Below, in pieces: positions 48,380 through 64,000 of a DNA stretch of 64,000 nucleotides; position 1 is the first letter of the stretch; each line of letters begins with the position of its first letter. The notes under the pieces were generated by a model. It was not told the origin of the DNA. It was given only the letters and a program-made list of their open reading frames with translations, and ran no database searches. The stretch lies in contig JAUCGI010000008.1 of the NCBI GenBank assembly GCA_030378035.1, positions 1 through 64,000 on the forward strand, read 5' to 3'. The position numbers were made by a program, and so were the translations under genes. This DNA comes from Desulfobacterales bacterium HSG2. Its GTDB lineage: Bacteria; Desulfobacterota; Desulfobacteria; Desulfobacterales; 4be13.

Positions 48380-48531
48380 CATCCTTCATTTGTCGGTTTA
48401 CACTTTCGGGTGTTAAGTGAATTCTTTTTTGCTTCTTTGTGCCCTTTGTGCCTTTGTGTGAGATATAAAAATGCCGCCTGCTCTGATTGGAAAAAAGTGT
48501 AAACTACTTCCGGCGTTTATGAAGGATGCCC
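48380..48531. mobile_element. MITE-like element, copy C, overlapping an ATPase 3' end
   Basis: Same element as 46988-47127. Its terminal GGCATCCTTCATAAACG on the minus strand encodes the last residues (GHPS) and stop of the ATPase gene, so insertion replaced the original ATPase C-terminus and removed the start of the nuclease gene that followed. Confidence 0.75.
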
Positions 48532-49803
48532 AAAATCACCTCGCAAAATAAGCTCGGAAACGGAAATATCTTCAGTATCCTGAGCCTTGTCCGTATCATT
48601 TTCCGGCCGCATGTTTCCCCATGAGCACAGAGGCTCAATAACGGTTCCCTCGGATTCTTTGCGACAGACAAACAGATTCTCATCACAAAGCATGTCAGCC
48701 AGAATCGGAGTGTGTGTCGTGACAATCAGTTGTGTCCTGCCCGTTGCCGCGCGGGTCTCCAAGAGGTCTGCAATCATGCGTATTCTGCGGGGATGGACAC
48801 CGTTTTCAGGTTCTTCAAGTCCGAGCAGGGCGGGAGGCTCCTGTGAGCCGTTCAGGGCCAGCAGTCCAATAAGCCGCAGGGTTCCCTCGGACAGCACCCT
48901 GGTAGGAACAGGCGTCTCATTTTCCATGAGTCTGAGTTCGACCTCGCCGAGATCATTCGGTCCGACATCAATGCCTGTGACATTCGGGATAAACATGCGA
49001 AGCGCCTTTTCAATCGCGTTGAACTGATATTTGTTCTGTACGCGCAAGGTGTTCAGAAAAGAGGCAAGTTCGTTGCCCATGGGACCGATATTGCGGGTCT
49101 CTCTGATCGGACTGGGCGCACGCATCCGCTCCCGTGGCTCAAAATAGAAAAACGACCATCCGGCAAGTTCCTGACGCATGGCGGTCAGGTGCGGGTAAAG
49201 ATGCGGATAAAGGGGCACTGACAGGATGCTGTGATCCGGATGCTGATCATAACAGGTCTGATGGGCATGACCTTCCGTCCGCAAATACAACTGATCCCTT
49301 ATCTTTTCCAGAAACGGACGCCTTTTTCGGCTGACTTTTCCGTCTTTGTCCAGCGCGGCCAAGTATTCGTCAGTGACCCGCAGCTCGCCGGATTTCGGAA
49401 ACATTTCGATTTCAATGCGGTAGCGCAGATATTTTTCACGGACAGAAGTTTCATCATGCTTCAGGCCTGAGGGCAGCTCACATATCTGACGATTGACGGA
49501 TTCCGCGACAGCGTCAGAAAGTTCGACATCGGCCTCCATGCTGAGTGAAACAGTTTTCCGCGTGAGCAATCCCCTAATTCCCTCATTCCCGAACGTGAAA
49601 GATTCCAGAGGCCTGCCGCGATAAGGCGGCTCAAACGCGTCTTTAAGTGTGCGGCCGGCCGCCATCCCTGATAAAAGCTGTAAGGCATCCAGAAAATTGC
49701 TTTTTCCGGCCGCGTTGGCACCGAATAACACAGAAAGCGGGCTGAGACGCACATCAACGTCAATCAGCGATTTATAACCTTTAATTTTAATCTCTCTGAG
49801 CAT
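48517..49803 (-). CDS. AAA family ATPase (AAA21-like), 3' end altered by MITE
   Basis: 428 residues from the ATG with GGAG 10 bases before it; a GTG at 49821 is less likely. Walker A GANAAGKSNFLDA (near 30), signature-like RVLSEGTLRLIGLLAL, Walker B ALLGLEEPENGVHP (near 340) and IVTTHTPILADML. The final residues FGHPS come from a repeat element. It follows the DUF4276 gene by about 20 bases; its own nuclease partner is a stump at 48198-48376. Confidence 0.85.
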   Translation of the reverse strand: MLREIKIKGYKSLIDVDVRLSPLSVLFGANAAGKSNFLDALQLLSGMAAGRTLKDAFEPPYRGRPLESFTFGNEGIRGLLTRKTVSLSMEADVELSDAVAESVNRQICELPSGLKHDETSVREKYLRYRIEIEMFPKSGELRVTDEYLAALDKDGKVSRKRRPFLEKIRDQLYLRTEGHAHQTCYDQHPDHSILSVPLYPHLYPHLTAMRQELAGWSFFYFEPRERMRAPSPIRETRNIGPMGNELASFLNTLRVQNKYQFNAIEKALRMFIPNVTGIDVGPNDLGEVELRLMENETPVPTRVLSEGTLRLIGLLALNGSQEPPALLGLEEPENGVHPRRIRMIADLLETRAATGRTQLIVTTHTPILADMLCDENLFVCRKESEGTVIEPLCSWGNMRPENDTDKAQDTEDISVSELILRGDFGHPS

Positions 49804-49824
49804 CTGTTTCTCACTCCTCACTTC

Positions 49825-50427
49825 TTATTTCTCAGCTTTGCAGATGAAATATTGCCTCCCCTCATTTTCGGGAGACAATCCGTTCAGGCCTGTGACAAAA
49901 TGATTAAAGCTCTTTGAACGGTTGTTCGCCACATTCATGCAGGCGGAAATCTTCTCAGCGGTATCCAGTTTGGGCAAGACATCATATCCTTTCAACTCCG
50001 GAACAATTTGTCTGAGATGTTCAGATGGCTTTATTATTCCGTCTATGTTTCGGAATCTTTTCTTGTTCTGAAATTTTGCCGCCCTGAATCTCGGATAAGC
50101 CCGCTCTGTTGCCGCCATGTCTCCCAAAAACCATGCTTCCAACTCTCTGCAAACGATTCGGATCAGAACCTCACAACCTGCTCTCTCAGACAATTTCTTC
50201 AGCTTGTTTTTCAATTCAAAACAGTTATGGCTGTTCTGATCGTGCAGGATAACAATTGCGACGCCCGGCTGTCTGCTTAGTGTGGGAACAACCTTTCTGA
50301 TCGCAAGCTGCAAGTCCTCCTTTCCGTTATGCGACCTGATCTCATAACTTTCTCCGGGAATGATGATGGGAAGCAGGTTCTCCAGTGCCCGCTGCATGGA
50401 GCGTTCTTCAAGCATAAAATAAATCAT
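49825..50427 (-). CDS. DUF4276 family protein (TOPRIM-like)
   Basis: 200 residues from an ATG that overlaps the ATPase stop (ATGA); the reading from 50469 is rejected. IYFMLEERSMQRALENLLP at the N-terminus, IVILHDQNSHNCFELKNKL near residue 80 and RELEAWFLGDMAA near 115 match DUF4276, a TOPRIM-like fold with Glu, Asp and Glu as likely metal ligands. It is the partner of the frameshifted ATPase at 50424-51613. Confidence 0.85.
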   Translation of the reverse strand: MIYFMLEERSMQRALENLLPIIIPGESYEIRSHNGKEDLQLAIRKVVPTLSRQPGVAIVILHDQNSHNCFELKNKLKKLSERAGCEVLIRIVCRELEAWFLGDMAATERAYPRFRAAKFQNKKRFRNIDGIIKPSEHLRQIVPELKGYDVLPKLDTAEKISACMNVANNRSKSFNHFVTGLNGLSPENEGRQYFICKAEK

Positions 50428-51613
50428 CCCGGATTCGCTCCTCCCGCATAGCCATGCTGCCACAGCCACCCCAGCTCATTCCCGGCCTCAAAAAGCTCCG
50501 TCAGCATCCTGTCGTCCTGTGCGGGAATGATTTCCGCCTCTCCATTGTTTTTCCTCATAAAAAAGAGTTCCCTGATATCTATGGCATTGAGAAAGTCCGG
50601 GGAATGGGTGGAGACGAACACCTGCCCTCCTCTCACAGCATAATCCCTCAGTTCCTCGGCCAGTTCCGGCAGCAGCCCGGGGTGGAGGTGGGTTTCAGGC
50701 TCCTCGATGCAGAGCAGGGGATGAGGCTCCGGATCATGAAGCAGGATGAGATACGCGAACATTCTCAGCGTTCCGTCGGACATATTTCCTGAGACAAACG
50801 GATCCGCAAAAGGCCCGTCGCTGAACCTGAGCAGAATTTGCCCGGCCTCGTTCCGGATGGCCTCGACATTTTCAATCCCCGGGACGCTCCGGGCCATTTT
50901 CCTGAGAATCTCCTCAAACCGCTCAGGATGATTGTCGTGGATGAATTTGGCGACCTGGGCAATGTTCGCACCCGACGGGGAGAGATGTTCGTCAGCACCG
51001 ACCTTTCCGATCCTTTGCAGCGCCTCGTCATGAAAGTCGGACATCGCCCACCCTTCCAGCAGCTTCCGAAAGGAACTGATTGCCCTGAACCGCTGAAACT
51101 GCCCCAGCCCCTTGATCGCCAGGATATCCGGCGATTCCAGGATTTGTTCCTCCGTCTCCTCGGTTGCCCCTTTCTTTCCGTAATCCTCCTCGTTTCTAAT
51201 GACAGTTCCCTTCCCGTTGTGGAACTCCAGAAAATGCCACGGTCTGTCCTGCTGACCCCGGCGATATTTCAGAATCTCGGTCTCCGCATAAGCTCGGTTC
51301 TTTTCATGTCCGATCCTCAGAAAATAAGTCGCCAGAGGGTCCTTTTTCCGCCGGCATAACGGAATTTGATTTCGATTTCCACAAACGCATCCGGGCCGGC
51401 ACCCCGGAAGAGAAGTTCCCCGAACCCGCCCTCACGACTGACGGCCGCTGTGACATTGTTCCTCAGCGCGTCATTCAGAAAGGCAAATATCCTGAAGAAT
51501 GTCGTCTTTCCGGAACCGTTGGGGCCCACAAACACACTGAGCCGGGAAAGGTTTCCTGTCTCGGCGTTCCTGAATGCCCTGAAATTTTTCACTCGTAACT
51601 GTTCTATCTTCAT
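50424..51613 (-). pseudogene. AAA ATPase paired with DUF4276, one-base frameshift
   Basis: Start ATG with AAAGGA 8 bases upstream. KIEQLRVKNFRAFRNAETG, Walker A GPNGSGKTTFFRI, then the frame stops at 51317 after GGKRTLWRLIF. One extra A in the run at about 51340-51345 restores GGKKDPLATYFLRIGHEKN and the rest in one frame, through LLCIEEPETHLHPGLLPE and VFVSTHSPDFLNA to 50424, about 396 residues. Either a recent loss of function or a homopolymer error. Confidence 0.75.
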
Positions 51614-51635
51614 TTTCAACATCCTTTGGGCAGGG

Positions 51636-52764: not shown

Positions 52765-53955
52765 TTAAAACGCCCAGCCTGCAAAGTATTCGGAGTCTTT
52801 GTCAAACTGATCAAAGAAGTCCTTCGGCCAGTCATCCAAATTTCCCTCGTTGTCTATTAGCAGCGTCTGAACCTGAGCCAAATTTTCAGCTTCCGCTTTC
52901 TCACGCTGACGAAAAAAGTGAATCGCCACCTGTTCCTTTGTAAGTTCGGAACCTTTGTCTCTGACAGCTCTTCGGACGCCATTCAGTATGTGATCGCTGT
53001 GAGTCTCTGCGATGATTTGGATACCTGCCGAGGCAACCCGGGACAGAAACAGCCCCATGTTTGACTGTGCGGCCGGATGAAGATTCGATTCGGGATTTTC
53101 AATCAGTATGATATCCCCTCTGTCGGCGTTCAGGCATGCCGTTATAATGGGCATGACATGTATTAATCCGTACCCGACATTCTGAGGTCTGTGATACTCA
53201 CCGGATTCTGTCGTGCGAAAAGAGAGTATTACCTGATTCGCATTGGCCGCCTGTTCGATTTTAAACCCCGACCCCGGGAAAAAACGGTTCAGATATGCCT
53301 CTGTCTGTCTCTGCAATTTGAATGACTCACCGGGAATTCTCAGTTTCTCATTAACCGCCTTGCTGCCGTGTTTCAATAAGAACCAGGGAGCATATTCCCC
53401 TTTTGACCCGACTGTGCGGTATCTGTCGGAAGTATGCGCCTTATATGTTTCCTGCGGCGGTAATCTGTCAGAGGAGATATAGGTGAGTCTGTATATTTTA
53501 TCTGTTATCTCGGATGAGCCGATTTCAAATGACTCCGGCATCAGTCTGTAAATTATCTCATTATGAGACGTTGCAGCGCATTTTTTCTCAATATTCAGTC
53601 TGAGGTCAGAAAACCGTATCTCCTCAAAGGGAATGAAATAAGCCAGACGGTCTTCACTGACTGCCTTCCAGAGATATCGGTATCTGTCAGTCTCAACACC
53701 TATAATCACACGATGCCGCCCTCTGCTTTTATCAATGACATCAACCACAGTTCCCAAAGAGAGAGAATCGCCGTTCAGGATAATGCTCTGACTCCACTCG
53801 TTATGCAACATGGTCTGATTCAGCAGAGTCAGTGCCTGCAAGATGCTTGATTTGCCGGAAGCGTTAATACCACTTAGCAATGTTAAATTTTTCAGTGGCA
53901 GATGCAGCTTTTCAAAGCATTTAAAATATTCCATAATGACAGTGTTTAAAATCAT
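52765..53955 (-). CDS. DUF3696 AAA ATPase in DUF262 operon
   Basis: 396 residues. Walker A SGINASGKSSILQ (near 28), Walker B DIILIENPESNLHPAAQ (near 280; the usual Glu-Glu/Asp-Glu is Glu-Asn), IIAETHSDHILNGVRR and the C-terminal DUF3696 motif NLDDWPKDFFDQFDKD. It follows the DUF262 gene by about 70 bases. Together they form an ATPase/DUF262 pair with a third, truncated gene behind. Confidence 0.88.
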   Translation of the reverse strand: MILNTVIMEYFKCFEKLHLPLKNLTLLSGINASGKSSILQALTLLNQTMLHNEWSQSIILNGDSLSLGTVVDVIDKSRGRHRVIIGVETDRYRYLWKAVSEDRLAYFIPFEEIRFSDLRLNIEKKCAATSHNEIIYRLMPESFEIGSSEITDKIYRLTYISSDRLPPQETYKAHTSDRYRTVGSKGEYAPWFLLKHGSKAVNEKLRIPGESFKLQRQTEAYLNRFFPGSGFKIEQAANANQVILSFRTTESGEYHRPQNVGYGLIHVMPIITACLNADRGDIILIENPESNLHPAAQSNMGLFLSRVASAGIQIIAETHSDHILNGVRRAVRDKGSELTKEQVAIHFFRQREKAEAENLAQVQTLLIDNEGNLDDWPKDFFDQFDKDSEYFAGWAF

Positions 53956-54024: not shown

Positions 54025-55041
54025 TTAACCATGAAAAGGGTCGTGCTTTCGGTAAATTCCCTGTTTTTTTCTTAAATTTTCAAATGCATCGGCTATTTTG
54101 TTCTTTTTTTCCTTAATTTTGCTGAACGGATAATCAGACAGGATAACTGAGAGAACATCAAAATAAGCCAGACTGATTTTGTATCTCTTTTCCTCATATA
54201 TCTGAAAGGCTTTCTCTCCGAACACTTCGCAGTTGTTCCTCATGCTGTTATCCAGTTTTTTTGCGAGATTGTCAAGCTCGTTTTCGGTCATTTCATTCAT
54301 ACGGATAAGTGTCTCCGCCAGAAACTGATCCATATTCCCGCCGTATTTGTCAGTTCCCATTAGGGTGAAAGCACAGAAACGGTTCACGGCCTCTCTGTCG
54401 AGCATGTTCTTCTGTAAAAAAACACGTTTGCCGAAACGGATGCATTTTAAAAAATATGTTTTTTCCGACTGTTCTCTGAGCCAGCGTGTTGCGGGGCCGT
54501 TGTGGAGTGCGTTGCGCATCTGCTGTCTGGTAAGCGGTCGCCCGCTGTTCACCCGTTCAAATATGTCCAGTTTGGCCTGTTCCGGTACTTTGTGATCGAT
54601 CAGATACAGTATTAACCGGGTATCTTCCAAACGGTTTTGTAATTTGGGTGGCAGATCGCCAAACTTTTTTCCCAGCAGCGGGCTGCCGTTTGCCAGACCC
54701 CGTAATGCAAATTTGTCGGCAAGATAGTTTTTCAATGCTGTCAGCCGCTGTTGTCCGTCAACAACAACGATATTACCGTTCTCCTGCTCCGCAAAGTAAA
54801 AGACCGGAAGGGGGATGCGCATCAGGCAGGATTCAATCAGTTTGCTTTGACGCTGACAGTTCCAGGCAAAATCTCTTTGGATGTCGGTATCCAGTATGAA
54901 TTTGGGCTGTCCCGGTTCTGGCTGGTTTATTCCTCGGATGACTTCGAAGACTGATCTGTTTTCGGGGCGGATTATGAGACTGTCGAGGGGGTGGTTGCCC
55001 AGAGTGTCAGTGCCTTCCTGAAATTCAATATTATTTTTCAT
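54025..55041 (-). CDS. DUF262 protein with canonical DGQQR motif
   Basis: 338 residues. ILDTDIQRDFAWNCQRQSKLIES is the N-terminal arm and NIVVVDGQQRLTALKNYL the canonical nucleotide-binding motif, unlike the DGFQR/DGPQR of the triplet at 41-45 kb. FERVNSGRPLTRQQMRNALHNGP is also typical. No DUF1524 domain. AGAGGAAA precedes the ATG. It is coupled upstream to a short open frame. Confidence 0.88.
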   Translation of the reverse strand: MKNNIEFQEGTDTLGNHPLDSLIIRPENRSVFEVIRGINQPEPGQPKFILDTDIQRDFAWNCQRQSKLIESCLMRIPLPVFYFAEQENGNIVVVDGQQRLTALKNYLADKFALRGLANGSPLLGKKFGDLPPKLQNRLEDTRLILYLIDHKVPEQAKLDIFERVNSGRPLTRQQMRNALHNGPATRWLREQSEKTYFLKCIRFGKRVFLQKNMLDREAVNRFCAFTLMGTDKYGGNMDQFLAETLIRMNEMTENELDNLAKKLDNSMRNNCEVFGEKAFQIYEEKRYKISLAYFDVLSVILSDYPFSKIKEKKNKIADAFENLRKKQGIYRKHDPFHG

Positions 55042-55270: not shown

Positions 55271-56938
55271 TTAATTTATATTAACTGCAAACTCATATGG
55301 CTGTGAGCATTGAAGAAAAGAATGCTGTGTATCATTATAAAAATAATAAAGTTTAATCAGAAATTCGCAAAAGTAATTCCCTTTGTTTAGATGCAGTTCT
55401 TCATAAGGTATAAATAAATCAGCCTCATCATAAAAGATATCGTTTTCTGAAACGAAATATTTACCAACAGAAACCTGACCGTCTGTAGATGTAAATAACC
55501 CATTGAAATCTTTTAACACCATCCAATCTTTAAGGGAGAAATATGCAGCAACACCACATTGAAAGCCATTTAAATTCTCAGTTTTAAATTTAATACGAAT
55601 CTTTAACCCCTCATTATCATTTTGATAAACACCGGGTTCTGGTGACACATCTATAATCTTTCCTTTAATATATCGAGTTTTATTTAATTTAGGGATTTTT
55701 TTCAAATCCGCTATTAAATCTTCTTTTTCTGAAGTTGAAAGATCAAGATACTCAAGAGACATCTTCTCTATAGCTTGTGATACTTTTTTTATCGCCAATG
55801 TATTACGTTGCGAAAAAGTAATAGAATCGCTTAAACTTTGATAAAGATTTTTAACTCCTTTTATATTTGAATAATCATATGGCAGAGAAAAATCTTCATA
55901 CCCTGCATATATACGGCCTATCTGCTTTGAATTTTCTCTGAGCTTTTTTATCCTAATTATCCATTTATCAAGATAGTCGTCTTTTACTTTTATAATATCT
56001 TTTTCCGACAGCCATTTTTGAATAGTTTCGGCCTGTTTCTTCATCGTTATCAACTTTTCATCTGTAGTGACAGATTTAAAGCCTTCGATAAACTGGCTGA
56101 AATTATCATTAAGGTATTCTTCAACTATCTTCCATACAGACAGCGGACACCAACGTCCAAAAGAAGTTCGGATTGTATATTTACTTGTAAATCCTTGGTA
56201 AAATTTTTTAGGAAGATGGGAGATATCTATATATTGTTTGGTCAAGTTAGCTTGCTCAGAGTCAAATTCTAATTTGGTAAGAAGCGAATCATTAGACTCT
56301 GTATTTTTGAGTTTTTTATATTGAACTCCGATCAAATTTTTGAGATTTATATCCCACTTATTTAAAAAACGTCCATGAGATAATAAATAATAACAAAATA
56401 ATTCTTCGTTCTCATATTTAATTTCTTCATTTAAATCTATCGCATTATTATCCCATAATGAAAAATATAAATCCACGAATTGTTTGATGTGCTGTTGTTT
56501 TTGTGTTATGTAACCCAGCTCTGTATTCACGCCATTGAATCCTCGGAGAGTGAGGTTAGCTGATGTAATCATAACAAATCCGCTTTCTTTTAAGTCATCA
56601 TATAGGGCATATCCTTTTGCATGAACCATTTCGCCTTTGGTTCCTGATATAACTCTCCATTGAAAATTCACCTTTTGTTCCTTATAGTATTGTTCTAATT
56701 TGTGAAGTGTTTGCTTAGACCCCAATTTATATATTTCAGATACATTGAACATAAGAAATACATCCGATATGATTTTCGGACTAAAATCTTGAATAACCTT
56801 CTTTACTAAATCAAAATTTATATAGCAACTAAGAAGGAGTACCTGATTAGTTGAGGTATTATTTAAGTTAGATACAACACTTTTTAAAGAATCTCTGACA
56901 CTACATGTCCTATCATGTAAAAATATATCATCAAACAT
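55271..56938 (-). CDS. Phospholipase D-like protein, probable nuclease
   Basis: 555 residues. The N-terminal third is a PLD-like domain with one HKD-type site: MVHAKGYALYD then FVMITSANLTLRGFNGVNTELG (near residues 125-165). The C-terminal two thirds are of unknown fold. Similar proteins are restriction-type nucleases that dimerise to make an active site. AGAGG precedes the ATG. Its DNA is more A/T-rich than the neighbours, suggesting separate arrival. It stands alone, with no ATPase or methylase next to it. Confidence 0.75.
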   Translation of the reverse strand: MFDDIFLHDRTCSVRDSLKSVVSNLNNTSTNQVLLLSCYINFDLVKKVIQDFSPKIISDVFLMFNVSEIYKLGSKQTLHKLEQYYKEQKVNFQWRVISGTKGEMVHAKGYALYDDLKESGFVMITSANLTLRGFNGVNTELGYITQKQQHIKQFVDLYFSLWDNNAIDLNEEIKYENEELFCYYLLSHGRFLNKWDINLKNLIGVQYKKLKNTESNDSLLTKLEFDSEQANLTKQYIDISHLPKKFYQGFTSKYTIRTSFGRWCPLSVWKIVEEYLNDNFSQFIEGFKSVTTDEKLITMKKQAETIQKWLSEKDIIKVKDDYLDKWIIRIKKLRENSKQIGRIYAGYEDFSLPYDYSNIKGVKNLYQSLSDSITFSQRNTLAIKKVSQAIEKMSLEYLDLSTSEKEDLIADLKKIPKLNKTRYIKGKIIDVSPEPGVYQNDNEGLKIRIKFKTENLNGFQCGVAAYFSLKDWMVLKDFNGLFTSTDGQVSVGKYFVSENDIFYDEADLFIPYEELHLNKGNYFCEFLIKLYYFYNDTQHSFLQCSQPYEFAVNIN

Positions 56939-57060: not shown

Positions 57061-59535
57061 TTAGACATTCCCATATTTTTTAACTAACTCCACTAATCTC
57101 ACAATAGCATTAATCAGCCGACTGTCCTTCCCTTCAAAATATTTCATTTTGGCAAGGACTGATCTGGGATTCTCTTTTAAGAGGGAAAAGGGAAACTTGT
57201 CTTGGTGGCTTACAATGTCCAAATCTTTGGTAATCAGAAAACCTTCTTTTGCAGAGCCGAAAATAGTATAATCCCATAAAAGCAAAAGGTTATCCGCCAA
57301 ATGCCCTGCATAAGCTTGCTTGGCATTTTCTAGTTTCTCATAACTTAGATACATGTTATCATCCGCTATCCACAATTCTCCCAATGTCCTGCCATAATTA
57401 CCATAGCCTAAACTGGCTTGATGTATTGAAGAATCTATTTTTTTTGTATCTTTAATAAAGGAATAAATAGCCATAGCTGTCAAACTCTTATTTTTTATGG
57501 CTCTATTTAGGTAAATATTAGCACGATCAATATTTTTTTCTTTATAATAACAATGCATTGCTATCTTTATCATAGCATCTATATTATTATTTTCACATGC
57601 TTTTTTATACCATTTTAATCCTTCAACTTCCTTTTCTTTTACCCCTATACCTCTGTAATAGCACAATCCAACAAGATATTGTCCCGTACTATCATTTTGT
57701 TCAGCGGATTTCATAAAATATTTAAAAGCTTGCCTTCCGCTTTTATCAACATATATACCCTTATCATAGAAAAGTCCAATCATATTCAAAGCTTGTGCAT
57801 AGTCTTGTTCAGCGGCTTTGTAATACCATGTAAATGCCTTTCCATAGTTTTTTCCAACATAATTTCCGGAATAATACATACCACCTAAAGCGGATTGGGC
57901 AGTAGCATAGCCCTGTTCAGCGGCTTTTGAGTACCACTCAAAAGCTTTCTTGCAATCCTTTCCAACATACCATCCAAAACGATGCATAGCACCCAAGTTG
58001 CATTCAGCTTTTGCAAGCCCTTGTTTAGCAGCTTTCAAATACCATTCAAACGCTTTTTTTAAATCTTTCTCAACATATTCTCCATAATGATACATATAAC
58101 CCAATCTGTTTTCTGCTTTATCAAGACCTTGTTCAGCAGCTTTTAAAGACCATTCAAATATTTTTTTGTAGTCCTTCTCAACATACTCTCCTTTCCAATA
58201 CATATCACCCAGCTCAAATTGGGCCTTTGCATGGCCCTGTTCAGCAGCTTTTGAGTACCAGTCCAAAGCTTTCTGTTGATCCTGATCTGCTTCATCATCT
58301 CCATCAAAATATTTTTTACCCAGTATAAACTGCGCCTCTGCATCACCTTGTTCAGCAGCTTTCAAGTACCAGTCAAAATCTTTATCTTCCTCTGGGATGT
58401 CTGAATCTGCCGATGCTGACATGGAATCAGATTCTTCTTCAAACAGATTTTTCGTCAGTTTCATACAATTCAGCAATTCCACAGCAAGATCACGGAGCGG
58501 TATGGCTATCTCCAAATCAATGCCCTGCTTTCTGATAAAAGTTGTCAGAACCTTCTTGATAGCTTCTTTTTTACCAATATTCAACTGCTCGCTCAGAGCG
58601 TCAATCGCTGCCGAACTGCCTACATAGCTGTCAGCAATCTGATACAAAGAGGTGAAGCTCGGATCCGAAACATTCTCCAGAATGAATGATGCCGGTATGG
58701 GATTATCCGGTTCTCCGGAATCCAGGCGGAGAAGTTCCTGATATTGTGAAAACGAGGCATCTTCTATTTCATCTATCAGTTCATCAACAAAGTCGGCAAG
58801 CCTGATTTTCTCTTTCCACGGCAGCCCCGCCTCTTTGACGGCTTTCTGGAGATATTTTATCTCCGTGATATTCCAGGCATCCTCCTTGAGAGACAGAAAA
58901 TCCCTGATCACTCTGAGCAGTCTGAAATGAGGTGGAAATTTTTCATCATAATCGTAAGTATCTATCGTCAGCAGCCAGCCGTGAATATTTGTGGAGACTT
59001 CCAAATTTCCGACCCTGTTTTCCAGATCAAGAAATCTTTTACAGACCTTTTCCGCCATTCTGTCAATTGCATTTTTTGTCTCCTCCTGCTCCACCGCCAG
59101 TGACATCAGATTGTTTTTGACCGTGATCACAGAGTGCGCCAGTAACAGATCACGATCCTGAAGCAGATCAAGATATCGCCAGGCGTATTTCTGCATTTCT
59201 ATGAGGTCTTTCTGGTTTGCCCTTTGCATCTCCCCCTGCTTACCGCAAAGTTTGTGCCAGCATCTTTTGAAGAAGCCCTGTCCCGCATGATCGTCCAGAC
59301 GATCTTCAGTACACGACAGAAGACGTGCCGCGTCCAATGCCATCTGCTCTGCTTCGGTGGCTCTCGTTTGCGCCCGGACCAATCTGGGTTCAATGGATCG
59401 GTCTATTGTCTCAAGCTCATCAGGAGTACAATCAAAAATCCCCTCTCCTGATTTTTTCTCTTTCAAATCCGAACCGCACTGCATACAAAAACGCCCTTTT
59501 TCATATTCAGTGTTGCACTTTTCACAAATCCGCAT
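57061..59535 (-). CDS. Zinc-ribbon protein with Sel1 repeats, paralogue 1
   Basis: 824 residues. Zinc ribbon at 1-23 (CEKCNTEYEKGRFCMQCG), a shared helical region to about 385 (GFFKRCWHKLCGKQGEMQRA; LLLAHSVITVKNNLMSLAVE), an acidic linker, then about nine Sel1-type repeats (WYLKAAEQGDAEAQFILG) from 390 to 690. The last 130 residues (YTIFGSAKEGFLITKDLDI) resemble a PH-like domain. Sel1 repeats bind proteins; the molecule is probably a cytoplasmic scaffold. GGAG precedes the ATG. The role is unknown. Confidence 0.78.
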   Translation of the reverse strand: MRICEKCNTEYEKGRFCMQCGSDLKEKKSGEGIFDCTPDELETIDRSIEPRLVRAQTRATEAEQMALDAARLLSCTEDRLDDHAGQGFFKRCWHKLCGKQGEMQRANQKDLIEMQKYAWRYLDLLQDRDLLLAHSVITVKNNLMSLAVEQEETKNAIDRMAEKVCKRFLDLENRVGNLEVSTNIHGWLLTIDTYDYDEKFPPHFRLLRVIRDFLSLKEDAWNITEIKYLQKAVKEAGLPWKEKIRLADFVDELIDEIEDASFSQYQELLRLDSGEPDNPIPASFILENVSDPSFTSLYQIADSYVGSSAAIDALSEQLNIGKKEAIKKVLTTFIRKQGIDLEIAIPLRDLAVELLNCMKLTKNLFEEESDSMSASADSDIPEEDKDFDWYLKAAEQGDAEAQFILGKKYFDGDDEADQDQQKALDWYSKAAEQGHAKAQFELGDMYWKGEYVEKDYKKIFEWSLKAAEQGLDKAENRLGYMYHYGEYVEKDLKKAFEWYLKAAKQGLAKAECNLGAMHRFGWYVGKDCKKAFEWYSKAAEQGYATAQSALGGMYYSGNYVGKNYGKAFTWYYKAAEQDYAQALNMIGLFYDKGIYVDKSGRQAFKYFMKSAEQNDSTGQYLVGLCYYRGIGVKEKEVEGLKWYKKACENNNIDAMIKIAMHCYYKEKNIDRANIYLNRAIKNKSLTAMAIYSFIKDTKKIDSSIHQASLGYGNYGRTLGELWIADDNMYLSYEKLENAKQAYAGHLADNLLLLWDYTIFGSAKEGFLITKDLDIVSHQDKFPFSLLKENPRSVLAKMKYFEGKDSRLINAIVRLVELVKKYGNV

Positions 59536-59699: not shown

Positions 59700-61835
59700 T
59701 TACGGTATCCATAAAGTCTGTTTTATACTATCGGCCAAACTTATAGCTGTAAAAACGATACTTCCCCTAACATAGATATCCACTATTACTTCTAAACCTT
59801 TATCCATAAGCGGGATACTTTCAAAAAACAACTTCCCTATTATTTTATTCTTTTTCATATCAGAATGATTACCTTCCAATAATATAACTTCTGTTATAGC
59901 TTGACTACCCCAAATAATCGGATAAAGTATTAATGATTTTTTGGTCGGCTTTGTTGTGTAGCGTTCAATAATTTTTTGGGGACTGTTATCTCCGACTTTT
60001 ATCAGTATATCCAAAGTTGTTATGTCTAATAATAGAACATTTTTTATATCTCCTCGATGCACCCCATACTGTATTGATGCTCCAATTGCTGACGGTGATC
60101 CTTCTTTATCATCATCCCATATCTTCAATTCTCCGTTAAGATTATCTTTGATGATATTCAATATTAAATCTGACAAGTTACCCTGAGCATAGAATAGAAT
60201 ATCATCAATATCAGAAGTCAAGATACCGCATGATTCAAGCGTATCGAGAAATAATTTTTTTATCTCATCTTCAGCATTCAGAATTTCTGATATATCAATA
60301 TTTGAAACGGATATTACTTCATATACGCCGGCTTCCATATCAATAAGAGCTATATCTATATTATCGTTATCTAACTCGCATACAAAAGTTACACCATATT
60401 TATTGTACTTATGACCATAGGCAAGGCCAGCAAGAACAGGGGATTCAACGATTAGGTGTACTTGTATTCCCCATTTACTTAATAAATAGCATATATTTCG
60501 ACGCATGAATCTGTCAAAGTAAACTGGCACTGCTAAAACGATATCTTTTCTCATAAAATTACTCGATACAGACTCCGCCAATATAGACTGAGCCTCCGCA
60601 TCTCCCTGCTCCGCCGCTTTCAAATACCACTTAAAAGTTTTCTCCTCCTCTGGAATATCTGAATCAGCCGATGCTGAAGTGAAATCAGATTCTTCTTTCT
60701 CATGAGGCTGTTGAAAGTTTTGTTCATTATTAAAACTTTCAAACAGTTTTTTCGTCAGTTTCATACAGTTCAGCAATTCCACAGCAAGATCACGGAGCGG
60801 TATGGCTATCTCCAAATCAATGCCCTGCTTTCTGATAAAAGCTGTCAGAACCTTCCTGACCGCCTCTTTTCTGCTGATATTCAGCTCCTCGCTCAGAACA
60901 TCAATCACCGCCGAACTTCCTGTGTAGCTGTCAGCGATCTGATACAGAGAGGTGAAGCTCGGGACCGAAACATTTTCCAAGATGAATGATGCCGGTATGG
61001 GACTACCCGGTTCTCCGAAATCCAGGAGGAGAAGTTCCTGATATTGTGAAAACGAGCTATCTTCTATTTCATCTGTCAGCTCACAGACAAAATCGGCAAG
61101 CCTGATTTTCTTCTTCCACGGCAGACCCGCATCTTTGACAGCCTTCTGAAGATACTTTATCTCCGTGATATTCCAGTCATCCTCCTTGAGAGACAGAAAG
61201 TCCCTGACCACTCTGAGCAGCCTGAAATGGGGCGGAAATTTCTCATCATAATCATAGGTTTCTATGGTCAGCAGCCAGCTATGAATATTTGTGGCAGCCT
61301 CCAGGACCCCGGCCCTGTTTTCAAGTGCGACAAACCTTTTATAGACCTTTTCCGCCATTCTGGCAATCTCATTTTTTGTCTCCTCCTGCTCCACCGCCAG
61401 TGTCATCAGATTGTTTTTAACCGTGATCACAGAGTGCGCCAGTAGCAGATCACGATCCTGAAGCAGATCAATATATCGCCAGGCATATTTCTGCATTTCT
61501 ATGAGGTCTTTCTGGTTTGCCCTCTGCATTTCTCCCTGTTTACCGCAAAGTTTGTGCCAGCATCTTTTGAAGAAGCCCTGTCCCGCATAATCGTCCAGGC
61601 GATCTTCAGTACACGACAGAAGACGTGCAGCGTCCAATGCCATCTGTTCCGCTTCGGCAGCTTTTGTCTGCGCCCGGACCAGTCTGGGTTCAAGGGATCG
61701 GTCTATTGTCTCAAGCTCATCAGGAGTACAATTAAAAATCCCCTCTCCTGATTTTTTCTCTTTCAAATCCGAACCGCACTGCGTACAAAAACGCCCTTTT
61801 TCATATTCAGTGTCGCACTTTTCACAAATCCGCAT
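59700..61835 (-). CDS. Zinc-ribbon protein fused to degenerate Hsp70-like region, paralogue 2
   Basis: 711 residues. The first 395 are nearly the same as paralogue 1, ending in a single Sel1 repeat. From about 425 an Hsp70-like region follows: IVLAVPVYFDRFMRRNICYL and VESPVLAGLAYG match the IxVPAYF and NEPTAAALAYG motifs, SAIGASIQYGVHRGDIKNVLLLDITTLDILIKV matches the AxAIGAAxQGGVL-GD-K-VLLLDVTPL segment, and a substrate-domain-like beta region ends it. The first ATP-binding lobe (DLGTT) is missing and DLGGGT is replaced by ELDNDNID, so ATPase activity is unlikely. It may bind peptides or partners without cycling. Confidence 0.8.
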   Translation of the reverse strand: MRICEKCDTEYEKGRFCTQCGSDLKEKKSGEGIFNCTPDELETIDRSLEPRLVRAQTKAAEAEQMALDAARLLSCTEDRLDDYAGQGFFKRCWHKLCGKQGEMQRANQKDLIEMQKYAWRYIDLLQDRDLLLAHSVITVKNNLMTLAVEQEETKNEIARMAEKVYKRFVALENRAGVLEAATNIHSWLLTIETYDYDEKFPPHFRLLRVVRDFLSLKEDDWNITEIKYLQKAVKDAGLPWKKKIRLADFVCELTDEIEDSSFSQYQELLLLDFGEPGSPIPASFILENVSVPSFTSLYQIADSYTGSSAVIDVLSEELNISRKEAVRKVLTAFIRKQGIDLEIAIPLRDLAVELLNCMKLTKKLFESFNNEQNFQQPHEKEESDFTSASADSDIPEEEKTFKWYLKAAEQGDAEAQSILAESVSSNFMRKDIVLAVPVYFDRFMRRNICYLLSKWGIQVHLIVESPVLAGLAYGHKYNKYGVTFVCELDNDNIDIALIDMEAGVYEVISVSNIDISEILNAEDEIKKLFLDTLESCGILTSDIDDILFYAQGNLSDLILNIIKDNLNGELKIWDDDKEGSPSAIGASIQYGVHRGDIKNVLLLDITTLDILIKVGDNSPQKIIERYTTKPTKKSLILYPIIWGSQAITEVILLEGNHSDMKKNKIIGKLFFESIPLMDKGLEVIVDIYVRGSIVFTAISLADSIKQTLWIP

Positions 61836-61956: not shown

Positions 61957-64000
61957 TCATGCAGTAAAAAGAAAATTGTCGAAACGATAATCAAGACCTT
62001 TTTTTCCTTTTTTACCTTTCTTAGCTAACTCTGCCAATCTTACAATAGCGTTAATCATCCGACTGTCTTTCCCTTCAAAATATTTCATTTTGGCGATGAC
62101 CGATCTGGGATTCCCGTTTAAAAGGGAACGAGGAAATGTGTCTCGGTGGCTTATAATGTCCAAATCCTTGGTAATTAGAAAGCCTTCTTTTGCAGAACCG
62201 AAGATAGTGGCATCCCACAGAAGCTGGGCTCTATTCGCCAAATTTCCTGCATAAGCTTGTTTGGCATTCTCCAATTTTCCATAATTTTTACACCCCATAT
62301 TATCGCCTACTATCCATAAGTCACCAGCAGCTCTGCCATAATCACCATATCCCAAATTGGCTTCTGATGAAGAAAACCCTTTGGTATCTTCAATAAATGA
62401 ATAGATTGCCATAGCTGTTAAATTACCTTTTTCTATGGCTTCCTTTAAATAAGACTTTGCAAGATCAATATTTTTTTCCTCACAATAGTAATATCTTGCT
62501 ACCCTTATTATAGCTGTTATACTATTATTGTTAAGAGCCCTTTTATACCATTTTAAAGCTTCAAAGTTATCTTTCTCTACTCCTTCACCATAATAATAAC
62601 ACTGTCCAACAAGGCATTGCCCACAATCATCATTTTGTTCAGCGGATTTCATGTAATACCTAAAAGCCTGTTTTTCATTTTTATCAACATATATACCCAA
62701 ATTGTAAAAAGCTCCGATCATAGTTATAGCAAGTGCAAAATCTTGATCAGCAGCTTTTGATAACCATTCAAACGCCTTTCTGACATCTTTCTTGTCCAAA
62801 TAATACATGCTTAACGCGCATTGTGCCTCAGCAAGCCCCTGATCCGCAGCTTTTGAGAGCCATTTAAAAGCCTTTCTGTCATCTTTTTTAAAGTAATACA
62901 TTCCGCCTAACGCACATTGTGCCTCAGCAAGACCCTGATCCGCAGCTTTTGAATACCATTCAAACGCATTCTTCTTATCATCTTTCTCGGAATACACCTC
63001 ACCTAACTCAAATTGAGCTTTGGCATGACCTTGTTCAGCCGCTTTTGAATACCATTTGAAAGCTTTTTGTTGATCGGCCTTTACTTCATCTCCGTCAGAG
63101 TATTTTTTACCCAATATAAACTGCGCCTTCGCATCCCCCTGCTCCGCCGCTTTCAAATACCACTTAAAAGTTTTCTCCTCCTCTGGAATATCTGAATCAG
63201 CCGATGCTGAAGCGAAATCAGATTCTTCTTTCTCCTGAGGCTGTTGAAAGTTTTGTTCATTATTCAAACTTTCAAACAGCTTTTTCGTCAGTTTCATACA
63301 ATTCAGCAATTCCACAGCAAGGTCACGGAGCGGTATGGACACATCCAAATCAATGCCCTGCTTTCTGATGAAAGTTGTCAGAACTTTCCTGATCGCCTCT
63401 TTTCTGCTGATATTCAACTCCTCGCTCAGAACATCAATCACCGCCGAACTTCCTGTGTAGCTGTCAGCAATCTGATACAGAGAAGTGAAGCTCGGGACCG
63501 AAACATTCTCCAGGATGAATGATGCCGGTATGGGATTACCCGGTTCTCCGAAATACAGGCGGAGAAGTTCCTGATATTGTGAAAACGAGCTATCTTCTAT
63601 TTCATCTGTCAGCTCACAGACAAAATCGGCAAGCCTGATTTTTTTCTTCCACGGCAGACCCGCCTCTTTGACAGCTTTCTGGAGATACTTTATCTCCGTG
63701 ATATTCCAGTCATCCTCCTTGAGAGCCAGAAAGTCCCTGACCACTCTGAGCAGCCTGAAATGGGGCGGAAATTTTTCATCATAATCATAGGTTTCAATGG
63801 TCAGCAGCCAACTGTGAATATTTGTGGCAACCTCCAGGACTCCGACCCTGTTTTCGAGTGCGACAAACCTTTTATAGACCTTTTCCGCCATTCTGTTAAT
63901 TGCATTTTTTGTCTTCTCCTGCTCCACCGCCAGTGTCATCAGATTGTTTTTAACCGTGATCACAGAGTGTGCCAGTAACAGATCACGTTCCTGAAGCAGC
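61957..64000 (-). CDS. Zinc-ribbon/Sel1 protein, paralogue 3 (5' end outside window)
   Basis: Open to the right edge; the first visible codons (LLQERDLLLAHSVITVKNN) align with residue 125 of paralogue 1, so about 125 residues with the zinc ribbon lie outside. The visible part has the shared helical region, about eight Sel1 repeats (some short, YYFKKDDRKAFKWLSKAADQ) and the same PH-like tail (ATIFGSAKEGFLITKDLDII). It differs from paralogue 1 in repeat number and order. A Met at 63963 is internal and not the true start. Confidence 0.8.
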   Translation of the reverse strand, partial: LLQERDLLLAHSVITVKNNLMTLAVEQEKTKNAINRMAEKVYKRFVALENRVGVLEVATNIHSWLLTIETYDYDEKFPPHFRLLRVVRDFLALKEDDWNITEIKYLQKAVKEAGLPWKKKIRLADFVCELTDEIEDSSFSQYQELLRLYFGEPGNPIPASFILENVSVPSFTSLYQIADSYTGSSAVIDVLSEELNISRKEAIRKVLTTFIRKQGIDLDVSIPLRDLAVELLNCMKLTKKLFESLNNEQNFQQPQEKEESDFASASADSDIPEEEKTFKWYLKAAEQGDAKAQFILGKKYSDGDEVKADQQKAFKWYSKAAEQGHAKAQFELGEVYSEKDDKKNAFEWYSKAADQGLAEAQCALGGMYYFKKDDRKAFKWLSKAADQGLAEAQCALSMYYLDKKDVRKAFEWLSKAADQDFALAITMIGAFYNLGIYVDKNEKQAFRYYMKSAEQNDDCGQCLVGQCYYYGEGVEKDNFEALKWYKRALNNNSITAIIRVARYYYCEEKNIDLAKSYLKEAIEKGNLTAMAIYSFIEDTKGFSSSEANLGYGDYGRAAGDLWIVGDNMGCKNYGKLENAKQAYAGNLANRAQLLWDATIFGSAKEGFLITKDLDIISHRDTFPRSLLNGNPRSVIAKMKYFEGKDSRMINAIVRLAELAKKGKKGKKGLDYRFDNFLFTA

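Follow-up and report, generated by a model that had tools for sequence, protein, structure and literature searches.

A degenerate DnaK-type Hsp70 module in the exchangeable C-terminal slot of a candidate two-gene defence family

INTRODUCTION

To our knowledge, Hsp70 proteins are nearly always met as working ATPases. Here we describe a 711-residue protein from Desulfobacterales bacterium HSG2, encoded within the first 64,000 nucleotides of contig JAUCGI010000008.1 (referred to here as the window), in which a piece of Hsp70 is joined to a helical N-terminal domain. We refer to proteins with this helical domain as B proteins and to the gene that precedes them as gene A. The Hsp70 module resembles DnaK in its sequence ancestry, its VLLLD linker, and its SBDbeta, but it differs in lacking the ATP site, nearly all of IB, the lid, and most of IIB.

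The nearest described parallels each share only part of this design. Ssz1, of the ribosome-associated complex, is likewise a noncanonical Hsp70 without an ATPase cycle or a lid and with SBDbeta as the binding site, and a lidless SBDbeta of this kind can bind clients without ATP hydrolysis, through a low-affinity site (PMC7083937). However, Ssz1 keeps its entire NBD, still binds ATP, is eukaryotic, acts at the ribosome, and is not fused to a B domain. Hsp70-like NBD/SBD units also occur inside predicted defence systems, namely CoCoNuT and related McrBC systems (PMC11090510), and here the likeness is the fusion of such a unit into a predicted anti-invader system. In those systems, the unit is joined to the McrB GTPase or to McrC, whereas the window protein lacks McrBC parts, and neither McrB GTPase nor McrC gave a Pfam match in A or in the B proteins scanned.

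The conflict systems described by Kaur et al. in 2020 (eLife) use inactive copies of cellular enzymes as variable parts, for which decoy action has been proposed (PMC7159879). These NTP-dependent systems resemble the A-B unit in combining a fixed core with highly variable C-terminal modules, many of them inactive enzyme copies, but none of the MoxR, vWA, GTPase, or VMAP components was found in the A-B unit. In the Juk system, JukA senses early jumbo-phage proteins and recruits effectors (PMC13282480). The JukA sensor domain forms the C terminus of two Acetobacteraceae-like B proteins, and the logic of a sensor with a membrane-acting partner is similar, but a JukA domain is lacking from the window protein and A has no PADLOC match. 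Finally, in Avs5 (AVAST type 5), the domain of TPR/Sel1 repeats at the C terminus is essential for activation and is a proposed pathogen sensor (PMC12931631). Two paralogues in the window, S1 and S2, have comparable C-terminal Sel1/TPR repeats, although the B genes encode neither a STAND NTPase nor a Sir2 domain.

RESULTS

Architecture of the gene and its paralogues

The gene and its two neighbouring paralogues are arranged as follows.

59700-61835, minus strand: intact CDS for the 711-residue B-type protein with a degenerate Hsp70 C terminus (N-domain paralogue and Hsp70 matches)
61776-61826, minus strand: putative zinc ribbon C4-x2-C7...C17-x2-C20, residues 4 to 20 (sequence by eye)
60681-61760, minus strand: conserved helical B domain, approximately residues 26 to 385, the real scaffold (identity to neighbours and homologues; dN/dS about 0.2)
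60579-60680, minus strand: linker with one leftover Sel1-like unit, reaching the Hsp70 seam at approximately codon 418 (DNA similarity break; GC drop)
60399-60545, minus strand: second half of Hsp70 subdomain IA, DnaK 137-185, with VPVYFD and ESPVLAGLAYG (E. coli DnaK alignment; Pfam HSP70 134-215)
60291-60398, minus strand: first part of Hsp70 subdomain IIA, with ELDNDN in place of DLGGGT (E. coli DnaK alignment)
60048-60239, minus strand: second part of Hsp70 subdomain IIA, with AQGNL in place of GGxTR (Pfam and DnaK alignment)
60018-60047, minus strand: interdomain linker IKNVLLLDIT, DnaK 386-395 (VLLLD identical to DnaK)
59703-60017, minus strand: SBDbeta-like domain that stops at the SBDbeta/lid boundary, without a lid (PDB phmmer, DnaK alignment, beta-sandwich strands in the model)
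57061-59535, minus strand: paralogue S2, with the B domain, Sel1 repeats, and a terminal domain weakly matching BnzA (Pfam, paralogue comparison)
61957-64000, minus strand: paralogue S1, with the B domain and Sel1 repeats, running on to contig position 64368 beyond the window (paralogue comparison)

These three genes hold the only copies of the N-domain in the genome. An initial annotation, made from the sequence alone, had noticed that the N-terminal part nearly matches that of its Sel1-carrying neighbours, and residues 1 to 385 are indeed 92% identical to their counterparts in S1 and 87% identical to those in S2. DNA similarity to the paralogues ends abruptly at the seam, where GC content falls from 46% in the N-part to 33% in the Hsp70 module and GC3 falls from 0.51 to 0.27. 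The C termini of S1 and S2 are likewise AT-rich (36 to 38% GC), and all three genes therefore look mosaic, with a resident N-part and an imported C-part.

A draft genome of 288 contigs with three tandem copies whose 5' parts are 87 to 93% identical might suggest an assembly chimera, in which near-identical paralogue N-domains were joined to an unrelated Hsp70 fragment. We regard this as very improbable, given that the N-domain of this copy has its own substitutions along its whole length (8% from S1), that the reading frame is unbroken across the seam, and that the contrast in GC between N- and C-parts is present in all three copies.

The helical domain and its selection

The initial annotation had taken a zinc ribbon and Sel1 repeats to be the scaffold. 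This part of its reading is superseded: as judged by sequence comparison, the scaffold is a helical domain of approximately 340 residues, and Sel1 repeats are just one option among several for the C terminus. The putative zinc ribbon at residues 4 to 20 gives Pfam zinc-ribbon matches only under the cut-off (E of 0.1 to 0.2) and was not found in the N-domains of B relatives from other genomes. The helical N-domain falls outside all Pfam, PADLOC, and PHROGs models, and its profile gave no match below an E of 0.05 against PDB sequences.

Relatives were recovered in other genomes, with B-domain identities of 29 to 60%. The N-domain is found in six loci of the one-genome-per-species contigs, in about 1% of the genomes of the order, and in a single, more remote genome within the phylum, and it is carried by one Vibrio and two Cronobacter plasmids; a scan of viral contigs with the N-domain gave no relative. 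A patatin-dynamin protein (L016) was set aside as a B protein because its match was marginal (E of 8.5e-4) and covered query positions 40 to 140 only. At locus L086:3533-12000, a patatin-helical-dynamin protein with a marginally B-like helical part is followed by a TerB-like gene and two dynamin-like genes.

Purifying selection acts on the N-domain of the Hsp70-carrying gene. The dN/dS between this gene and S1 is 0.235, and the branch leading to this gene, with S2 as the outgroup, carries 10 nonsynonymous and 16 synonymous changes in the N-domain (P of 1.4e-5 under neutrality). Similarity to S1 and S2 is patchy along the N-domain, which suggests gene conversion and weakens the branch assignment.

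Exchangeable C termini

The helical domain is combined with at least six unrelated C termini: Sel1 repeats followed by an end domain, the piece of Hsp70, a JukA domain, an FGE-sulfatase-like domain, a large domain that both HSG16 and Cronobacter possess, and a short tail. JukA is found in two Acetobacteraceae-like MAGs (L022, E of 6.9e-35; the other protein is 84% identical) and in none of the window B proteins. The FGE-sulfatase-like C terminus was recognised by eye in L023, and a Pfam match is present in a more distant relative, L017. The short tail belongs to the Vibrio B protein. The HSG16 and Cronobacter B proteins have in common a C-terminal region of approximately 650 residues (E of 1e-30). 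The N-domain of HSG16 is 54% identical to that of the window, compared to 29% for Cronobacter; that this C terminus is absent from the window copies despite the closer N-domain of HSG16 fits C-terminus swapping.

The end domain of S2 (residues 728 to 787) was considered as BnzA of Bunzi, but the match (E of 7.7e-4) was too weak for use. A stretch of it, FGSAKEGFLIT, is resembled by FKSGKEGFIIT near the end of a Desulfamplus Sel1 protein (L025).

Ancestry and losses of the Hsp70 module

The C-terminal Hsp70 landmarks of the initial annotation belong to a real, degenerate Hsp70. The Pfam HSP70 profile matches the protein at 75.6 bits (E of 3.3e-21) in two stretches (profile positions 134 to 215 and 365 to 493), the NCBIfam DnaK profile TIGR02350 gives an E of 6e-23 versus 8.5e-12 for the HscA profile, and a phmmer search of PDB sequences matched DnaK with an E of 5e-20. 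The module is approximately 27 to 32% identical to the DnaKs aligned. At the level of sequence, the region is thus securely homologous to the Hsp70 superfamily by descent and is of the DnaK type.

In an alignment to E. coli DnaK, IA is matched in its second half, IIA is mostly retained, and the linker is followed by SBDbeta as far as residue 502. Residues 1 to 36, the first half of IA, most of IIB, and the lid have no equivalent, and IB is almost entirely absent. The linker residues V389 to D393 of DnaK are identical at residues 600 to 604, and the protein ends at the position of DnaK residue 502, the SBDbeta/lid border. Most of IIB (about DnaK 228-306) is gone from between the two IIA parts; a few module residues do align within IB and IIB, but the alignment is weak in these places. 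Of the four subdomains of an actin-like NBD (IA, IB, IIA, and IIB), what is left comes chiefly from IIA, most of which is kept, and from the second half of IA. The earlier statement that the first ATP lobe is absent was thus nearly right, with the exception of these remnants.

Every ATP-site motif checked (D8-T12, K70, E171, D194-T199, and GGxTR) is absent or replaced. D8-T12 and K70 have no counterpart, and the replacements are E171 to S, D194 to E, G196-G198 to DND, T199 to N, and GGQTR to AQGNL, in agreement with the previously noted lack of DLGTT and DLGGGT. A module that has neither an ATP site nor a lid, and hardly any IB and little IIB, cannot run the chaperone cycle. The proposed loss of ATPase activity stands as far as the lack of a usable ATP site in the sequence is concerned, and from this we infer the loss of the activity itself. 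SBDbeta is supported by both sequence and model matches, with the lid absent and the pocket changed: peptide-pocket residues are poorly conserved (M404 to G and A429 to I in the DnaK alignment), which counts against ordinary peptide binding in the manner of DnaK and makes such binding uncertain.

Since a full-length mixed alignment misplaced the Hsp70 rows, only the C-terminal region (306 residues) was modelled with AlphaFold2 (mean pLDDT of 70). The best Foldseek match of the model was DnaK (E of 3e-20), and 6sr6, which bears on the likeness to Ssz1, was also among the matches. Because the input alignment held Hsp70 rows, this agreement is partly circular and indicates compatibility with an Hsp70 fold rather than independent proof.

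The singleton status of the module is the main weakness of the case: searches of 389 other class genomes, of plasmids, and of phages gave no orthologue. The next matches in the class genomes were ordinary DnaKs at approximately 60 bits versus 630 for the self-match, and the plasmid and phage searches with the Hsp70 part gave DnaK-like matches only. Another Hsp70-like protein of the same genome (L003:794-3379) repeats a short peptide (SSIKHQA/SSIKHPA) towards the end of the NBD.

Such a singleton, with about half of Hsp70 missing, an AT-rich composition (33% GC; GC3 of 27%), and poorly conserved pocket residues, could be a passenger or decaying cassette, produced by recent recombination between a B gene and a stray piece of Hsp70 and having no function or serving as a silent donor for reshuffling. 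We consider this doubtful, though a serious contender. The module is open for 292 codons, for which the chance is approximately 1e-11 in random sequence of the same composition, its codon-position pattern is normal, and it has neither a stop nor a frameshift despite its low identity to the DnaKs. Furthermore, its deletions lie near subdomain borders, as does the end of the protein. The low GC content by itself does not indicate decay, as the sister C termini are AT-rich too. The purifying selection on the N-domain also argues against a passenger, although a very recent swap could mask relaxation.

Gene A and the A-B loci

Gene A (492 residues; contig positions 64386 to 65864) lies just beyond the window, directly upstream of the B array. 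The same order, with A directly upstream of B, occurs in four lineages (the window genome, HSG16, two Acetobacteraceae-like MAGs, and two Cronobacter plasmids), and in the Acetobacteraceae-like and Cronobacter loci a WYL regulator (PADLOC WYL) stands in front of the pair. The WYL-A-B operon is found on two Cronobacter IncFIB plasmids (L027:4484-10066 and L028:4484-10066), where A and B are annotated as hypothetical only; the Cronobacter-type A-B DNA had no matching E. coli genome. In a MAG labelled as Lactobacillales (L024:2400-5900), a degraded A-B pair is interrupted by stop codons (TAA, TGA, and TAG) and by shifts of frame and is either a decaying copy or an assembly error.

A has no Pfam, PADLOC, or PHROGs family match, and its profile gave none below an E of 0.05 against PDB sequences. 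It has a conserved E...N-D...D...QxK pattern, which we take to recall PD-(D/E)xK nucleases of the Mrr type, along with Gly-rich hydrophobic segments. A is thus predicted to be nuclease-like, with Gly-rich segments that may insert in membranes, a reading drawn from motifs and hydropathy, as the AlphaFold model had very low confidence (pLDDT of 32.5 from an alignment of four sequences only). The N-part of A recurs in Polaromonas, Acinetobacter, and Butyrivibrio plasmid proteins.

On a Vibrio cyclitrophicus plasmid (L026:5955-8269), B is paired with an upstream DUF726 alpha/beta hydrolase instead of A, so the partner of B varies too. This pairing would suit a scheme in which B proteins are effectors rather than sensors, their C termini acting directly (e.g., as dominant negatives on host or phage chaperone work) and A serving as a regulator or membrane anchor, as would the use of inactive cell-enzyme copies as effectors or decoys in conflict systems (PMC7159879). 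However, JukA-type and Sel1 C termini have sensing roles in characterised systems and A has a conserved nuclease-like motif, and we judge an effector role for B to be quite unlikely.

The defence neighbourhood

As the initial annotation had stated, the paralogue set lies beside defence genes, two of which are as follows.

54025-55041, minus strand: NsnA-like (Menshen) gene, DUF262/GmrSD_N (PADLOC NsnA, E of 2.7e-94; Pfam GmrSD_N)
52765-53955, minus strand: NsnB-like (Menshen) AAA ATPase with DUF3696 (PADLOC NsnB, E of 9.6e-102)

We take the Nsn genes to represent the Menshen system. PADLOC also detects HEC-01-like genes beyond NsnA and NsnB. Two HEC-01-like AAA ATPase genes lie at positions 48517 to 51622, the second of them seemingly split, with HEC-01 matches at both 51317 to 51622 and 50424 to 51044; this is perhaps a frameshift or a pseudogene. 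Between the B array and NsnA is a PLD-type nuclease-like gene (55271 to 56938; 31% GC) without a PADLOC match, a possible third partner of the Menshen-like pair. The Hsp70-carrying protein itself has no PADLOC match and is thus not recognised as a component of Menshen (NsnABC).

DISCUSSION

Several features point indirectly to an anti-phage class: the defence neighbours, the WYL regulator, the JukA module, and carriage on plasmids. As the same slot of sister proteins holds unrelated modules, including a known phage sensor, the Hsp70 module is probably a recognition part of a little-known phage-defence system. The initial annotation had offered recognition or scaffolding as the role of the Hsp70 relative. 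The JukA-type domain in the same C-terminal slot of relatives makes recognition plausible, and the scaffold is instead the helical domain, with its own two-gene context. Our preferred reading, to which we give roughly even credence, is that the two genes form a defence-like system in which the Hsp70-carrying B protein supplies a module for recognition or decoy action that works independently of ATP.

Under this reading, the helical N-domain of B would be an adaptor working with A, the C terminus of B would be the exchangeable recognition part, and A would be the output. The Hsp70 piece, made up of IIA, the linker, and a lidless SBDbeta, would offer a passive peptide-binding or decoy surface, and A would be switched on by contact with a phage product, for instance a factor that draws in host DnaK or displays a DnaK-type peptide. 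The defence role, the sensor role, the decoy logic, and A as the effector are all inferred from the comparisons above. A broader idea, which we hold only tentatively and think unlikely, is that the bait of the A-B family consists of interchangeable host proteins that have been retired from their original work. One tandem copy would then carry a nucleotide-free mini-DnaK that detects phage factors engaging host DnaK or presenting DnaK-type peptides, much as an integrated decoy does, here in a bacterium.

That defence genes can contain Hsp70 units is already known. What is unusual here is that, as judged by alignment, the module is pared to part of IA, IIA, the linker, and SBDbeta, with its nucleotide site erased, and that it occupies the exchangeable slot of a two-gene family outside Pfam, PADLOC, and PHROGs. 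If the recognition reading is true, the peptide-binding half of Hsp70 would be reusable without the nucleotide cycle, and some phage products may be recognised via their tie to DnaK. The A-B family, represented by WYL-A-B on the Cronobacter plasmids, has no PADLOC match, and its small size makes it open to direct testing.
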